NCBI GenBank assembly: GCA_024220525.1
Contig: JAMYWO010000195.1
Span: 1-43,138 of the forward strand
Length of the DNA: 43,138 bases
Direction of reading: 5' to 3'
Origin: Cochliopodium minus
Taxonomy: Eukaryota; Discosea; Himatismenida; Cochliopodiidae
In this document: positions 30,608 through 39,116 of the stretch, piece after piece
How positions within the stretch are numbered: the stretch's first letter is position 1
How the letters are laid out: each line of letters begins with the position of its first letter
The notes under the pieces: generated by a model
Database searches by the model: none
What the model was told of the DNA's origin: nothing
The model's input: the letters and a program-made list of their open reading frames with translations, nothing else
Position numbers and translations under genes: made by a program

Positions 30608-30808
30608 ATGGATCATCAAAAACAAGATAAAAAACTGGTCAAGATAATCCAAACATTTGCGAGCAAGAAAATAGAAAAAATCATATTAATTTCAATTTCA
30701 TTTTTTAAGATAGAAAATCTTCATTTTTCAATGAATGTGCCTGTCTTGGATATAAAAACAATTTATGGCAAGAGATCTCTTAAAGATCAAAATAATATTC
30801 CTTTTTGA
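30608..30808 (+). CDS. Short hypothetical open frame
   Basis: 66 codons, starting MDHQKQDKKLVKIIQTF and ending DQNNIPF. No family is recognised. The last codons (CAAAATAATATTCC) recur just ahead of the second copy of the tandem Sel1-like gene, so this could be a 5' exon or leader of that gene rather than a gene of its own. Confidence 0.3.
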   Translation: MDHQKQDKKLVKIIQTFASKKIEKIILISISFFKIENLHFSMNVPVLDIKTIYGKRSLKDQNNIPF

Positions 30809-30819
30809 AAATTTACCTT

Positions 30820-32046
30820 TTTGAAAAATTTATGCACCATTTGAATGTTGAATGGACAAAAATTAAAAAAAAAATGGATCCCAACGAAGATAATGATGAT
30901 TCAGAAGGAGATTCTATTATTGATTCCAGATATTCTGAAGATGAGGAGGAATTCGATGATGAGGTAATTTCAAAAAATATTTTTGAAATAAAGAATTTAT
31001 TGAAATTAAGTTGGAAATTTTTATATAGATAACAGAAAAAGATAACATAAAGAATGAATATAATAAAGATGAAGATGATGTAGAAGAAAGGGTTGTGGAA
31101 ATTAACATCAAAGATTTGGAAATGACAGATTGTGAATCAATAATTTTTATTATTGAAAACTTATATGGAATCAATATTCCAAAAAACAAAAGAATTGCGA
31201 GAAATTTTTGTACTATATTAGCAAGAAAAGGAAATAAATTGGCGATGGCTCTTATTCTTCATTTCACAAAAATTTCACCAATAAAATGGGTGCATATTAA
31301 AGAATTGATTGAATTTAATGGGAAGACTGTTATTCAATTGATTTGCGAGTTTATAACAAGCATTATCTTGGAAAGATCGGAAAAAAAAAAAACCGTTTTT
31401 GCTTTTTGTAATTATTTTTTGGGAGAATGTTATCTTTACGAAAAAGGTTTAGAAAATATTGTTGTAAATTATTTCCTAATGGCTTCAAAACTGTATTGTT
31501 TTTTATAATTTTTTAAATAAATTAATAATTTTTTGATACTTTGTTAGAGGAGACAGCCTTGCATCTGCTAGATTGGGCAAGTTTTTTCACTTGATTAATG
31601 AAACCAATATTTCAATAATTTTCTATAAGAAGTCTGTGGAAAGGGGTAACAGTCTTGCAATGTACGAGTTGGGAATCATTTATTTAAAAATAGACTTAAA
31701 TAAAGGAATTGAACTTTTAAAAAAATCTGAACGTTTAAACAGAAGAAAGGCTACGAATGAATTAAAAGAACTCTCAAGTGGAAAATCTATCTATTTGATT
31801 TTTCAAAGAAGTATCAAACCTTGGTGGATTGAAAAAACATCAGATTTTAGGATAATATATAACAAAATAAAATGGTATGAACTCAATGAGAAAATAATTC
31901 TTTTACTTCTCGTTTCTAAGTTCAAAAACTTACTCCCTGCTCATTTACAAATCCCAAGATTAATTTGGATAAAGATAATTGGTTACCTATGTCAAATATT
32001 TGAACAAATGATGATGTGAGTAAAATTCTACCCAATTACTTGGTCA
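30820..32046 (+). repeat. Direct repeat, copy 1 (1227 bp)
   Basis: Matches 32661-33887 at a constant offset of 1841 bp with no indels. The only mismatch noticed is at 30863 (T here, A at 32704). Identity spans exons and introns and stops sharply after CCAATTACTTGGTCA. Confidence 0.95.
30832..32019 (+). CDS. Divergent Sel1-like protein, tandem copy 1
   Basis: Exons 30832-30963, about 31029-31493 and about 31549-32019; the start may be ATG 30832 (MHHLNVEWTKIKKK) or ATG 30874 (MDPNEDNDDSEGD). The N-terminus is acidic and disordered. The middle, EMTDCESIIFIIENLYGI, ARNFCTILARKGNKLAMAL, CNYFLGECYLYEKGLENI and ARLGKFFHLINETNISI, has the helix-turn-helix rhythm of degenerate Sel1 units, with a better one at RGNSLAMYELGIIYLKIDLN. 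The C-terminal about 100 residues (SIKPWWIEKTSDFR, PAHLQIPRLIWIKIIGYLC) are predicted helical and may be a short F-box-like end. Function unknown. A second, virtually identical copy follows. Confidence 0.72.
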
Positions 32047-32660
32047 ATAAAATTTTTTAAATTAATTTTGCAATTTTTTTTTTGAGCAAACAGAATTATT
32101 AAAAAAATTCGAATAAAAAAAATCATACTTAATTAAGGATAATTTTTTGTTTGAGTTCCACCCACATTAACATTTATATTCCGGAAACTTGTGGGATTTT
32201 TATTTGGATTTCTTTCATGCTAAGGCCAATCTTTTAGCAGTAAACGAAAATTGATTTTTACCTCTTTCATTGATCATGTTTCTGAACTTACTTTCTACTT
32301 AATGAGAAGCTCTTTCTTTTTAACCTTAGCCAATCCCATTACCATTCAACCAATTACACAATTTCCTTGTTTGCTAATACCTCAAAAAGTATTGATCGCA
32401 AACAAGATGCTATTATCAAGGAATGATTTCTTCTTGGTTTTATTTCTCAATCTTTTTATCCAATCCATCAATTAGGAGGATATCTTCAAAAGCAAGGTCA
32501 AGATTATAGGGTGAAATTGGTCCCTGACTTTTTCTTACTACCTCATACTTTCTATTTCCCAACCTTTTTCAAAAACAAAGAGGAAAAAATATTCTTAATT
32601 TAAAATTTTATCTAAAGACTGATTTAGAAATCACTAGACTTATTCAAAATAATATCCCTA
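32047..32660. other. Spacer between duplicated genes, decayed coding traces
   Basis: Base composition is much less biased than other intergenic DNA here. Frames 32480-32605 read like a protein end (GGYLQKQGQDYRVKLVPDFF, then HTFYFPTFFKNKEEK) and another frame of 32520-32660 ends LEITRLIQNNIPI, but each is interrupted by stops or needs frameshifts. This may be the relic of a gene; no family is recognised. Confidence 0.45.
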
Positions 32661-33887
32661 TTTGAAAAATTTATGCACCATTTGAATGTTGAATGGACAA
32701 AAAATAAAAAAAAAATGGATCCCAACGAAGATAATGATGATTCAGAAGGAGATTCTATTATTGATTCCAGATATTCTGAAGATGAGGAGGAATTCGATGA
32801 TGAGGTAATTTCAAAAAATATTTTTGAAATAAAGAATTTATTGAAATTAAGTTGGAAATTTTTATATAGATAACAGAAAAAGATAACATAAAGAATGAAT
32901 ATAATAAAGATGAAGATGATGTAGAAGAAAGGGTTGTGGAAATTAACATCAAAGATTTGGAAATGACAGATTGTGAATCAATAATTTTTATTATTGAAAA
33001 CTTATATGGAATCAATATTCCAAAAAACAAAAGAATTGCGAGAAATTTTTGTACTATATTAGCAAGAAAAGGAAATAAATTGGCGATGGCTCTTATTCTT
33101 CATTTCACAAAAATTTCACCAATAAAATGGGTGCATATTAAAGAATTGATTGAATTTAATGGGAAGACTGTTATTCAATTGATTTGCGAGTTTATAACAA
33201 GCATTATCTTGGAAAGATCGGAAAAAAAAAAAACCGTTTTTGCTTTTTGTAATTATTTTTTGGGAGAATGTTATCTTTACGAAAAAGGTTTAGAAAATAT
33301 TGTTGTAAATTATTTCCTAATGGCTTCAAAACTGTATTGTTTTTTATAATTTTTTAAATAAATTAATAATTTTTTGATACTTTGTTAGAGGAGACAGCCT
33401 TGCATCTGCTAGATTGGGCAAGTTTTTTCACTTGATTAATGAAACCAATATTTCAATAATTTTCTATAAGAAGTCTGTGGAAAGGGGTAACAGTCTTGCA
33501 ATGTACGAGTTGGGAATCATTTATTTAAAAATAGACTTAAATAAAGGAATTGAACTTTTAAAAAAATCTGAACGTTTAAACAGAAGAAAGGCTACGAATG
33601 AATTAAAAGAACTCTCAAGTGGAAAATCTATCTATTTGATTTTTCAAAGAAGTATCAAACCTTGGTGGATTGAAAAAACATCAGATTTTAGGATAATATA
33701 TAACAAAATAAAATGGTATGAACTCAATGAGAAAATAATTCTTTTACTTCTCGTTTCTAAGTTCAAAAACTTACTCCCTGCTCATTTACAAATCCCAAGA
33801 TTAATTTGGATAAAGATAATTGGTTACCTATGTCAAATATTTGAACAAATGATGATGTGAGTAAAATTCTACCCAATTACTTGGTCA
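32661..33887 (+). repeat. Direct repeat, copy 2 (1227 bp)
   Basis: Second copy of 30820-32046. The left border is preceded by CAAAATAATATCCCT, itself similar to sequence just upstream of copy 1. Past 33887 the two flanks differ completely. Confidence 0.95.
32673..33860 (+). CDS. Divergent Sel1-like protein, tandem copy 2
   Basis: Same three-exon structure as copy 1 at 30832-32019, with identical predicted protein except Asn for Ile in the leader MHHLNVEWTKNKKK. Introns are identical too, so the duplication is very recent, under gene conversion, or an assembly artefact. No frame damage, so both copies look functional if real. Confidence 0.72.
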
Positions 33888-34002: not shown

Positions 34003-34511
34003 TTATTCAGTTGAATCATCTTCTTTTTTGACTTCATCATCTTTGGAAGATTTATCTTCTTCGGATTTTATTTCAGATTCTATCCTCTTTCTCTTTTTCA
34101 TATTTTCTTCAGAAGAATCCGCAACATCTTTTTTCTCATCCTTTTTGATCTTTTTTTTAATATCATTGGTCTCCACATTCTTTCCTTTTTTTTTAGTTTC
34201 TTGATTGTTATCTTCCTTGTTCAAATTTTTCTTTGGTGGTCTTCCAACTTGTTTTCTATCAAAGTTTTCTAGACATTCCAAATTTCTATGTCTACAATAT
34301 GTACATGGTTTTTGTGTATCGCACTTCTATCTCCCCAAACATAAAAGTAAAATCAAAAATAAAAAATAGAAAAAATTAACAAAAATTATTTAACAAAAAT
34401 TAATTTTAATATTTAAAAATCAGTTACCTTATGATTTTTCTTACAATTTGTGCATGCATATACTTTGTCTTTCTTTTCAACATCTTTTTTCTGTTTTTTT
34501 TTACTGCTCAT
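34003..34511 (-). CDS. Zn2Cys6 (Gal4-type) DNA-binding protein with AT-hook-like motif
   Basis: Probable transcription regulator. Two exons (34511-34429 and about 34326-34003). The binuclear cluster spans the splice site: ACTNCKKNHK from exon 1 and KCDTQKPCTYCRHRNLEC from exon 2. The spacing C-x2-C-x6-C-x5-C-x2-C-x6-C is exactly that of fungal-type Zn2Cys6 domains. GRPPKKN follows, an AT-hook-like minor-groove motif. The remaining about 75 residues are a charged Lys/Glu tail without a recognisable activation or dimerisation domain. At about 130 residues it is far shorter than most fungal relatives. The family is known outside fungi in amoebae and some other protists. Confidence 0.88.
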
Positions 34512-34614: not shown

Positions 34615-36879
34615 TCAAAATTGATCCAGATTTTGTTTGAGAATGTTCTGATATCTTTGTGCGATGATATCAATCATATATCGGAAGAATTTGAGAGCAA
34701 GCAAAGAACATCTGTTGAAAATCATGATCATATCAACCCTTGAGAAAGAGATCTTTGAAAAGAATTTGAATAAAATTAGGATAAAATTAAGAAAAAAATA
34801 AATTGAAAATATTACAATTTCACAACCCTCTTCAGCAACAATCTCAAACAGATTATATTTGTCTTCCATAAAACCCATTTCATTAAAAAAAGTACCTCTT
34901 TGACATTAATTAATTTAATTAATAAAAAATAATTTTTTATTGAATAATCTTACGATCTGATAGAAGATAAATTGTGAACTTGATTGTATTTGGCTTTGAT
35001 GCTCACTTTACAACTTCCACTGCAAAGAAAAAAAATTTTGTCCGAAACCTCACCAGATTTCAAAATAACTTTTCCTTTCTCGTGAATTTCTCTTACAGAT
35101 CCCATCAATAATATTTTCCAATCTATTTTAATTTTGGAAAAAAATTAAATTCAATCAAAAAAAAAAATAAATATTGAATTCAATATTTATTCAATTTAAT
35201 TTAATTTATTTTAAATTTTGAAATTTTAATTTACCATTGTGAGACAAAAATAAATCATTTGTAGTACAGAAGGGAGTTTGTAAGAGCAGGTCTTCTATGG
35301 GGTTATTCTTTTTGAGGGCCAATGTCAAAATCAAATTTTTGGCGGTAACAACATCGACAATATCTTTGCCAAAAAAATTTAAAAATAAAAAATAAAAAAT
35401 GAAAAATGAAAAATGAAAAATGAAAAATGAAAAATGAAAAAAATAAAATAAAAATTTTTTTATACTGTAAAAATTATGGGTCATGTTGGAGGTGTAAATT
35501 TCGATTGATTTTTTGGGGAGATTGGATTTGATGTTTTTTATTTTGGAGATTTCGATGATCTGTCTGGAATCTTTCGAAAAATTGTTTCCGACAAAACAAA
35601 CATAATTGAGGGAAATGTAGAGGATGCCATGAGTAGTCAAGATTTTTTTAGTTTTGCACGTAAAATTGTACAGAAAATGTTCTGTTTTAGGCAAATTGAA
35701 AAGATTGGCAAACTTTTCATTTTCTTTTGTTTCTTCTTCGTTTGTTTCTGCAACAGGCTATTCATGAATTAAAATTTTTTATTTTTATTTTAATTTTATT
35801 TTAATTTTTAATTTTATTTTAATTCAATTTTTAAACATTTGTTTATTTTAAATTTTAATTAATATTTATTTTTTTTTTACCACAGCATCATTGTTGGTGA
35901 GACAGTTTCTGAAAAAAATTTTCTGGAGTGATTTGGAAGTGGGGATGTGAATGAAGTTTTGAATAAGCTTTCTTGTTGCTTTTATGTACTTTAGGCCTAT
36001 AAAAAAATAAAAAAAAAATTTAAAACCATAAAAAAAAAAGTTTAAAAAAAAATGTTATTAAAATACTATTAAAAAATCAAAATTAAAAAAATAAAAAATT
36101 AAAAAATTAAAAAATTAAAAAATTAAAAATTAAAAAATGTTATGATTTACAAAATTTTTGATAAAATTTTTTTCCGAGATTGGGTTGTGTATAAAACATA
36201 GAATCAAGGTCATTTGCTGCAAAAAAAGTAAGGGAGGTTCCTTCATCAATGGAAATAAAGTTTGAACGCAACAAAGAAGAATGGTGAACCACAAAAAAAT
36301 TGTCCGCTTTGTATTCTCTTATTGTGTTGTTTGATGTGTTCACATTCACATTTTTAATGTTTATTATGTTCACTGTTTTTACATTGTTATTGTTACTACT
36401 AATACTGTTGCTCACACTATTTAAAAATAAAGAAATAAAAATAAAATAAATAAAATAAATAAAATAAATAAAATAAATAAAATAAATAAAAATAAAAAAT
36501 AAAAATATAAATTAAATAAAAATATAAATTATAAATTATAATCCAAAATAATTTTAATAAAAATAATTTTAATAAATAAAATACTCTAAAAAAATAAATT
36601 ATTGAATTGGAAAAAAAAAGGAAACCTTGTTTTCTTGAGAGTGGAAAAGTTTTCGTCGGTCTCATTAGGAGCAAGGAAGGAGTAGCTATAGTTGTAGTTG
36701 TAAATGTTGTTGTAGAGGTTGGTGATTTCAGTGGTGTGAATGTTGTTGTTGTGGTAATAATTCAAAATGGGATTCGAAACGAAAAAATTTTTGTCATTTT
36801 TGCTAACATTGCTTCCATTGCCTCCATTGTTATCATTGCTTTTACTATTTTTATTATGATTTAAATTAATATTATTATC

Positions 36880-36956
<77 letters not shown>

Positions 36957-38715
36957 CTTTTTTATTATTGTTATTATCGTTATCGTTATCGGAGATTATG
37001 TTTTCTTGTTTGTTTTCGTTTGTGGATTCTCTTACTCTCCCTTTGTTGATTCTTACAAAGTACTTGTGTTGGTGGGTGGCGGGGAGAATTAGCTCGTATT
37101 TCGAGTACACTTTTTGCGTTCCTATCATTGACAGTAGTTGCCATTCCTTCTGTGTTATCCCCTCTATCCACCAAACCTTTTTTTTCACATTAAAAAATAT
37201 ACGAAATAAAAATTTTTTTAAAAAAAAAATTAAAAGTAATAAAATAAAATAATCAAAAAATAAAAGAATTTTAGAATGAACATTATTAAATTTTATTTCA
37301 AAATCAATAAAAATAAAAACAATGATGCTTTAAAAAAAAAAAGATATTATAAAAAAAATAATCAAAAGATTATGTAAAAAAATAAAAGAAAAAATAATTC
37401 AGTTTTAAAGAATGAAAAAAAAAAAAAATTGGAAAGAAAATTTTTTTTTTACTTTTTCGTTTTCGAGGAGATAATCAGAAAACAAAGAAGAGTTGTTGAA
37501 ATAAAAGGAAAGGGGTTTGGGAAGATACTCTCGTTTGACTTGAGAAAAGGGGAGGGAAAGTTTGCTTTTTTCGATAGACTCCTTTATTTTGATCGATAAT
37601 TCCGCCAACAGTGACTTTCTCGTTTTTATTATCCTCTTGTAGAAATCTGGTGCAAACATTGCTGCTCTCTCACTGTTTATCACTGTTCAAAAAAAAAAAA
37701 ATTTAAAAAGTTTAATTATTTCGTTAAATTTTTAAATGATATTTTTTTTATTTTTATTTTTTTTTTTGTTAAAGTGTTGAATTATTTGAATTTATTATTT
37801 TTATCATTAATATATTTTATTTTAATATAATTTATTTATCATTTAAACTATTTTGATTTTTTTATAATAATTTGTTTTTCTTTAAAAATATTTTTCGTTT
37901 TTTCTTTTTAACTTTGTTTAATTATTTTCATGAATAAAAAAAATTTAGTTTAATTTTAGTTTAATTTAATTTTATCTAATTTAATTTTAGTTTAATTTGA
38001 TTTTTAAATTTTTTATTTTAAATTTTACATTTGGTGAGAAGGAAATTGGTGAACTCGGGCCCTTCTCTGAAAACAGGGGGATCAGGGAGGAGAGGTTGTA
38101 TGGGCTTCACTCCCTCTTTCGTTATCACTGACACTCTGTAGTAGGTCGTTCCTTTTTCCACATGATCCACTGCCACCACTAAAATAAAAAATTATTAAAA
38201 AAAAAAAAGATAAAATTAAGGGACTATAATATAAAACAAAAAAAATAATTAAAAATAAAATAAAAATAAAATTAAAAATAAAATAAAGAAAATAAAAAAA
38301 GATAAAATTAAATAAAAAATAAAAAATAAAAAATAAAAATTAAAAAAAAAAAAATAAAAATTAAAAAAAAAAAAATGAATAAAAAATAAAAAATAAAAAA
38401 TAAAAAAATAAAAAATAAAAAATAAAAAAATTTAAATTATAATTAATAAAATAAAAATACCAATGAAAACATGAATGAACTGAGAAGTAAAGACTTTGGG
38501 GTCAAACTCTAAATCATTGGATTCACTAAAAATGAGAGCAACAACATCATTACCTATGTGCTTTTTTTTGGCAATTCTTTGTTTATCATTTTTGTCATCA
38601 GGTAACAAAGTGGAGACGTGAAACATTATTTTTGTTGATTCGTATATTGTGAAATAGGAGTGCTCCCCTGTTGAATCTTTTGTCACATTCAATCCCCCGT
38701 TGTAATCCTTCCAAT
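34615..38715 (-). CDS. RapGAP fused to cNMP-binding, GRAM and cNMP-binding domains (5' end missing)
   Basis: Predicted GTPase-activating protein for Rap, with a regulatory module. Eleven exons, in order from 38715, 38178, 37682, 37176, 36416, 35996, 35757, 35363, 35122, 34897 and 34752, all joining in compatible phase (about 790 residues visible). RapGAP: IMFHVSTLLP, KKHIGNDVVALIF (with the catalytic Asn), FTSQFIHVFIVVAVDH, FLLTKLINSERAAMFAPDF. First cNMP-binding-like domain: WQLLSMIGTQKVYSKYELIL to YFVRINKGRVR, split by a long Asn run. GRAM: LPKTEHFLYNFTCKTKK, HGILYISLNYVCFVGNN. Second cNMP-binding domain: EKGKVILKSGEVSDKIFFLC, GTFFNEMGFMEDK. The phosphate-binding Arg is not evident in either cNMP domain. 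Upstream exons are cut off at the N at 38988. Confidence 0.85.
35394..35445. repeat. 7-bp tandem repeat in intron
   Basis: Six or so copies of GAAAAAT (read on plus) within the intron splitting the GRAM domain of the RapGAP gene. Confidence 0.85.
36427..36500. repeat. A/T simple repeat in intron
   Basis: Repeats of AAATAAAAT/AAATAAATAA in the intron that splits the first cNMP-binding-like domain of the RapGAP gene. Confidence 0.75.
36878..36972. repeat. ATT triplet run coding for Asn
   Basis: Nearly perfect ATT run on plus, an uninterrupted Asn homopolymer of over 20 residues in the RapGAP gene, sitting as a loop insertion within the first cNMP-binding-like domain. Confidence 0.9.
37740..38020. 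other. Long A/T intron inside RapGAP catalytic domain
   Basis: Sits between the exon ending FLLTK and the exon beginning INSERAAM. Nothing other than A/T-rich low-complexity DNA is seen. Confidence 0.7.
38220..38455. repeat. A-rich simple repeats in RapGAP intron
   Basis: AAAAAT/AAAATTAAA units fill the intron between the first two visible RapGAP exons. Confidence 0.75.
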
Positions 38716-39116
38716 CTAAAAAAATAAAAATAAAATAAAATAAATATAAAATCAAAATCAAAAATTAAAAAATAAAAAAATAAAAAATAAAAAACATTAA
38801 ATAAAAATAAAAAATAAAAAATAAAAAACAAATTAATAAAAATAAAAAATAAAAAACAAATTAATAAAAATAATTTAAAAATAATAAATCAGGTCAAAAT
38901 AAAAATCTGATAAAATAATCTAAAAAATAAGAATAAAAATTAACATAGAATAAAAAAATGAAATAAAATAAACTAAATAAATAAAAANAAATTTTTTTAA
39001 TTTTTATTTTAAAAACCAATTTTTTTTTTTTGGGAATTTTTTATTGATTTTTAAACATATTAAATTTATTATTAAAAAATTTTCATTTGTAATTTTAATT
39101 TAAATTATTTTTGTAG
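38716..39116. other. A/T-rich flank with the third single N at 38988
   Basis: The RapGAP gene loses its 5' exons on the left of 38988 and the ClpB gene loses its 5' exons on the right. The two genes point away from each other, so both N-termini are missing at the same base. This is a likely contig join. No further coding sequence is seen. Confidence 0.75.

Follow-up and report, generated by a model that had tools for sequence, protein, structure and literature searches.

Two Dictyostelium proteins, GbpC and GbpD, carry a C-terminal tail in which a GRAM domain lies between two cNMP-binding (cNB) domains. In the available excerpts of the papers cited here, GbpD is described as a Rap1 GEF whose cNMP domains 'bind cGMP' (PMC11988041), while a second source calls these domains 'not functional' (PMC3188802). 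For GbpC, GRAM is required for membrane association and a DEP domain lies near the RasGEF (PMC6320773). GbpD strengthens attachment of Dictyostelium cells, which also becomes stronger when RapGAP1 or RapGAPB is lost (PMC9197732). In Physarum, cNMP proteins with a RhoGEF have been reported in addition to homologues of GbpC and GbpD (PMC4758236).

The gene described here lies in a stretch of 43,138 nucleotides of Cochliopodium minus DNA (hereafter the window), and its product combines a RapGAP domain with such a tail (Table 1). Like GbpD (RasGEF-cNB-GRAM-cNB), it has the C-terminal order cNB-GRAM-cNB, a predicted target in the Rap family, and cNMP sites that are open to question; the catalytic domain is a GEF in GbpD (Rap on), whereas it is a RapGAP here (Rap off). 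GbpC (a Roco kinase with DEP, RasGEF and cNB-GRAM-cNB) shares the tail, with a DEP near the catalytic domain, as is probably the case in two paralogues of the window gene (C90 and C454). Unlike in GbpC, however, RapGAP takes the place of RasGEF, and no LRR, Roc, COR or kinase domain was reported in the paralogues scanned. With human Rap1GAP the window gene has the RapGAP domain in common; to our knowledge, the human Rap1GAP family has no cNB or GRAM domain. The Physarum proteins resemble another gene of the present genome (C75, see below) in joining a cNMP domain to another GTPase regulator; the excerpts of PMC4758236 mention no RapGAP and do not state whether a GRAM lies in between. In the literature searched, part of it in excerpt form, no protein combining RapGAP with cNMP or GRAM domains was found, in keeping with a preliminary description of this DNA, which knew of no report of the order; the order may be annotated in architecture databases or other protist genomes without a paper. 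Judged from the sequences, both the presence of a RapGAP with a GbpC/GbpD-type tail and its reading as a new domain combination made of known parts are well supported.

Table 1. Position and composition of the window gene, its domains and related genes
Feature	Position	Strand	Exons and residues	Evidence or remark
Whole gene model	34615..38715	-	11 exons	stop TGA at 34615-34617
RapGAP domain, first part beyond assembly gap	37615..38713	-	exons 1-3, residues 1-157	Pfam 2.7e-47
cNB1, first half	37024..37170	-	exon 4, residues 214-262	50.5 bits versus 9.7 for best of 2000 decoys
Asn-rich low-complexity insert splitting cNB1	36314..37023	-	end of exon 4, intron 4, start of exon 5	sequence
cNB1, second half	35932..36313	-	end of exon 5, intron 5, start of exon 6	30.4 bits; alignments; FGE absent (NFFVVHH)
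GRAM domain	35320..35718	-	exons 7-8, residues 536-634	Pfam 1.3e-9
cNB2	34618..35122	-	exons 9-11, residues 663-791	Pfam 1.1e-12 (residues 677-759); PDB alignments to PKA-R and PKG
Single N	38988..38988	.		probable assembly gap of unspecified length
C75, RhoGEF-cNB-GRAM-cNB gene	L072, about 43937-46622	+		
C454			8 exons, 1073 aa	
C90			8 exons, 1022 aa	
C132			15 exons, 892 aa	one GC-AG intron
C378			17 exons, 927 aa	

The exons join in phase on the minus strand (38715-34615) into 791 residues, as had been claimed at the outset, and frames are open throughout. All 10 introns are GT-AG; they measure 56 to 346 bases and are poor in GC (4 to 14%, compared to 30 to 49% in the preceding exon); the window as a whole is 74% A+T, and the genome comprises 44.65 Mb in 598 contigs. 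The model in use was built by hand, the automatic gene finder having stopped after exon 9. At the 5' end, the first part of RapGAP and all that lies upstream of it are absent at the single N at 38988, which we infer to be a gap in the assembly. This N separates the gene from a divergent AAA/ClpB-like gene (39104 onward), which by reading of its sequence appears to start at its own second Walker A (AAA_2 match); the 5' parts of both genes appear to be missing at this point. Single N letters occur in the window at 1218, 19902 and 38988 and are probably assembly gaps of unspecified length.

The Rap_GAP profile (PF02145) matched the product with 161.2 bits against a gathering score of 27, over profile positions 29-185 of 185, and the GRAM profile (PF02893) with 38.3 bits against 23.6. 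The closest solved structures to the RapGAP domain were two chains of human Rap1GAP (3brw and 1srq; E 3.1e-37 over 162 residues); other PDB matches were much weaker (a GTPase activator-like chain at 8e-11, Tuberin at 2e-8, RalGAP at 1e-5). A HIGND motif aligns with that of Rap1GAP and reads HTGND in all four complete paralogues (C132, C378, C90 and C454); we take the Asn of this H-x-G-N-D motif to be the catalytic Asn of RapGAP. The window product is expected to stimulate GTP hydrolysis by Rap, its specificity for Rap being predicted from similarity.

No Pfam cNMP match was found for cNB1 in the window gene, where the domain is divided by about 165 Asn-rich residues that are absent from C132, C378, C90 and C454. 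When cNB1 sequences were scanned alone, none of five matched Pfam, including that of the window with the insert cut out (C454 gave no match as part of its exon either), and single cNB1 sequences gave no cNB match in the PDB with phmmer. The two window halves, scored with a profile built without the window sequence, nevertheless gave 50.5 and 30.4 bits, compared to 9.7 for the top decoy of 2000 shuffled ones. By hhalign, a profile of the six RapGAP-linked cNB1 sequences matched the non-RapGAP cNB1 set with a probability of 98.3 (E 2.5e-14), and cNB1 matched cNB2 with a probability of 94.4 (E 9.3e-8); in 200 column shuffles each, the best scores were 18.5 against a real 83.5 for the former comparison and 19.9 against 47.7 for the latter. 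In the PDB, the six-row cNB1 profile (with C145) reached yeast PKA-R (3e-6) and PKG (6e-6), these being whole-chain values, and no stretch within a PKG chain passed by itself; the five-row profile (without C145) reached 3of1 at 0.0011, the two domains of which gave 1.3 and 36 singly. Both lists also contained unrelated BlaI/MecI repressor chains at weaker E values (best 0.041 and 0.067). Since profile-profile comparison, shuffles and decoys agree despite the absence of a Pfam match, cNB1 is best regarded as a real but diverged cNB. The preliminary description had read from this DNA a RapGAP with its catalytic Asn (HIGND), followed by cNB-GRAM-cNB, and this order holds: RapGAP (Pfam 2.7e-47, Rap1GAP at about 3e-37), GRAM and cNB2 (1.1e-12) lie above the Pfam cut-offs and cNB1, which has no Pfam match, is recovered by profiles, shuffles and decoys, so that both sides of GRAM match a cNMP-binding fold.

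The complete RapGAP-cNB-GRAM-cNB arrangement, with open frames, was found in the four paralogues listed in Table 1. Since their starts reach the edge of the available sequence, C454 and C90 may be longer, and the end of exon 12 of C378 may be frame-shifted relative to C132, with which the window gene shares 45.0% identity over 616 aligned residues. Elsewhere, a complete cassette follows a RapGAP-like tail too weak for the Pfam model (C145), RapGAP and half of cNB1 are followed by apparently unrelated DNA (C518), and GRAM and cNB2 stand behind a stretch of N (C58). Exon 8 of C454 (565 residues) includes the RapGAP tail and continues without a break up to the stop, and exon 7 of C90 (374 residues) contains the RapGAP tail together with cNB1, GRAM and the beginning of cNB2. 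Four of the 10 window introns (2, 5, 7 and 8) recur in paralogues at an identical column and phase: intron 2 is common to all four paralogues, and introns 5, 7 and 8 are shared with C132 and C378. For the remaining six, these genes offer no counterpart within 3 columns. A GC-AG intron was seen in C132 (L012+L007, between 72493 and 72689), the other 53 of the 54 introns of the five genes beginning with GT.

The same cassette occurs behind other domains in this genome. It follows a RasGEF in C459 (2.9e-62), the end of a RasGEF in C284 (6.2e-6; GRAM at 0.0014 is below cut-off), a RhoGEF in C75 and a probable DEP in C10 (5.5e-6, below its cut-off); C426 appears, on reading, to hold a RasGEF and a cNB fragment. 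The RhoGEF of C75 scored 5.3e-9 in the gene model and 2.3e-28 in a piece to which an upstream stretch had been joined; its PH match was weak (0.0016). In each of the four non-RapGAP cassettes (C459, C284, C75 and C10), Pfam recognises two cNMP stretches. The models of C75, C145, C10, C284, C459 and C426 come unedited from the automatic gene finder, and the last exon of C459 is cut by the end of the available stretch. In a tree of 402 columns, these four non-RapGAP cassettes split from the RapGAP ones and C58 with a support of 93.2/79; the position of C145 is weak (48.1/53). Pfam found no RasGEF in C132, C378, C90 or C454, the window's own 5' end being missing; a probable DEP precedes RapGAP in C90 (2.6e-5) and C454 (6.3e-4), both values being below the Pfam cut-off, while C132 and C378, the starts of which are uncertain, gave none. 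A scan of viral contigs with the cNB2 alignment gave 10 pattern matches, none of which was confirmed. The exchange of RasGEF for RapGAP, and the parallel with GbpC and GbpD proposed on first inspection, are therefore borne out by full paralogues and by GbpD-like RasGEF versions in the same genome; the RhoGEF and DEP cassettes, and the probable DEP before RapGAP, had not been anticipated. The RhoGEF version has a partial precedent, because cNMP-RhoGEF proteins are reported from Physarum in the excerpts of PMC4758236.

The ligand sites of the two cNB domains differ in their state. Leaving aside C518 (RapGAP and half of cNB1) and C58 (GRAM and cNB2 behind an assembly gap), the phosphate-binding FGE of cNB1 is present in none of six RapGAP genes (window, C132, C378, C90, C454 and C145, the last counted as such on a RapGAP-like tail below the Pfam model), and it is kept in five of five other cassettes (C459, C284, C75, C10 and C426, the last being a cNB1 fragment only). 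In cNB2, the Glu is retained in all six RapGAP genes, as FGE in five and as FNE in the window, where FFNE replaces FGE. An Arg of known cNB domains contacts and holds the phosphate. At its usual place, five of the six cNB2 sequences in one alignment (with C58, without C145) have Thr, and that of the window has Asn, as is also read from its PDB alignment; a separate alignment places Thr there in C145. By reading of the alignment, the four RasGEF, RhoGEF and DEP cassettes appear likewise to be without the cNB2 Arg, so its loss would not be special to the RapGAP branch. The impression that the cNMP sites are degenerate was thus correct for cNB1 and only partly so for cNB2, which has kept the Glu and is missing the Arg. 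The 11 cyclase matches of the genome, spread over 5 contigs and with five in a single open frame, suggest that the organism is able to make cyclic nucleotides. Cyclic-nucleotide control of RapGAP via cNB1 is unlikely, and control by cyclic nucleotides or lipids as a whole is a candidate that is not well supported, less so than the architecture.

The interpretation we favour, and hold to be probable on balance, is that of a Rap GTPase-activating protein whose activity or cellular place is governed by its C-terminal GbpC/GbpD-type cassette. It takes its start from the observed domain order, the conservation in the family, the RapGAP catalytic Asn motif and the loss of FGE from cNB1, and from these it extends to GRAM targeting, a scaffold role of cNB1 and a sensor role of cNB2. 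GRAM would direct the GAP to the site of Rap-GTP at the membrane or cortex, in the manner reported for GbpC (PMC6320773, in excerpt); cNB1 would be a non-binding structural scaffold; and cNB2 would be the only remaining possible sensor, either binding a cyclic nucleotide at an altered affinity or serving as a unit of folding and interaction that has no ligand. Such a membrane-directed GAP, governed by GRAM and cNB2, would lower Rap-GTP and act like Dictyostelium RapGAP1 or RapGAPB, in opposition to GbpD-type RapGEFs bearing the same kind of tail.

Alternatively, the tail might be a true cyclic-nucleotide sensor, in which cNB2, although it has no Arg at the usual place, binds cGMP or cAMP and turns the GAP on or off. 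The Glu of cNB2, the cyclases of the genome and the four non-RapGAP cassettes, whose apparent similar lack of Arg would mean that its absence is not RapGAP-specific, are consistent with this; however, the Arg place holds Thr or Asn in all six aligned cNB2 sequences, and that of the window has lost the Gly as well, which leaves this reading doubtful. If neither cNB bound a ligand, the tail would only place the GAP, via GRAM and protein contacts. This pure scaffold overlaps with the interpretation we favour, from which it differs in giving cNB2 no ligand, and it is quite plausible without being the more probable case: FGE is lost from cNB1 in all six genes, the window cNB1 is broken by the Asn-rich insert, and the GbpD cNMP domains are called not functional in the excerpts of PMC3188802. 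The conservation of cNB2, which has 17 invariant columns in 6 rows and passes the Pfam cut-off, argues against it. The role of the tail is in any case extrapolated, because PMC3188802 and PMC11988041 disagree on cNMP binding by GbpD.

Two further explanations concern the gene itself. Had two neighbouring genes been wrongly joined, one could understand the six introns without partner in the paralogues and the automatic model ending early, after exon 9; yet single exons cross the junctions in C454 and C90, five genes have an identical domain order, and no stop codon occurs at any exon join. We rejected this reading, which is extremely improbable, on account of these single-exon junctions and the shared introns, and for the same reasons RapGAP and cNB-GRAM-cNB are taken, as far as sequence can tell, to be one gene, a member of a small family. 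It is also improbable, though to a lesser degree, that the copy in the window is decaying within an otherwise functional family: the insert in cNB1, FNE replacing FGE in cNB2 and the unseen 5' part would fit, but the gene is open over 11 exons, its catalytic motif is intact, and it is 45.0% identical to C132 over the aligned residues.

With GbpD as a Rap activator that bears this tail and the window family as probable Rap inactivators that bear one of its kind, the cNB-GRAM-cNB tail is not bound to RasGEFs. The family makes it possible to test whether one membrane or second-messenger input controls both the activating and the inactivating arm of the Rap cycle, and what role is left to cNB domains after the loss of a ligand site. 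More tentatively, and as a proposal that is somewhat unlikely in its full extent, cNB-GRAM-cNB may be a portable control cassette placed in this lineage on both on- and off-switches of small GTPases (RasGEF, RhoGEF and RapGAP), such that one signal could push a GEF and pull a GAP that both serve a single Rap pool; the loss of its first ligand site would then have rewired the RapGAP branch.

Some minor observations were made in the course of this analysis. The five cyclase domain matches in one open frame belong to a tandem-cyclase gene of 1940 residues (G000 C1:261696-266636). Directly downstream of the window gene, on the minus strand (34003-34511), lies a small two-exon gene, the start of which is Zn2Cys6-like (0.0029 for Pfam Zn_clus, which is below cut-off). 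Further on, the plus strand carries tandem copies (about 30796-32019 and about 32628-33860) of a gene whose Sel1-like match is weak (0.0093, which does not reach the cut-off). Over 300 bases the copies are 99% identical (30810-31109 compared to 32651-32950, spacing 1841), indicating a recent duplication.
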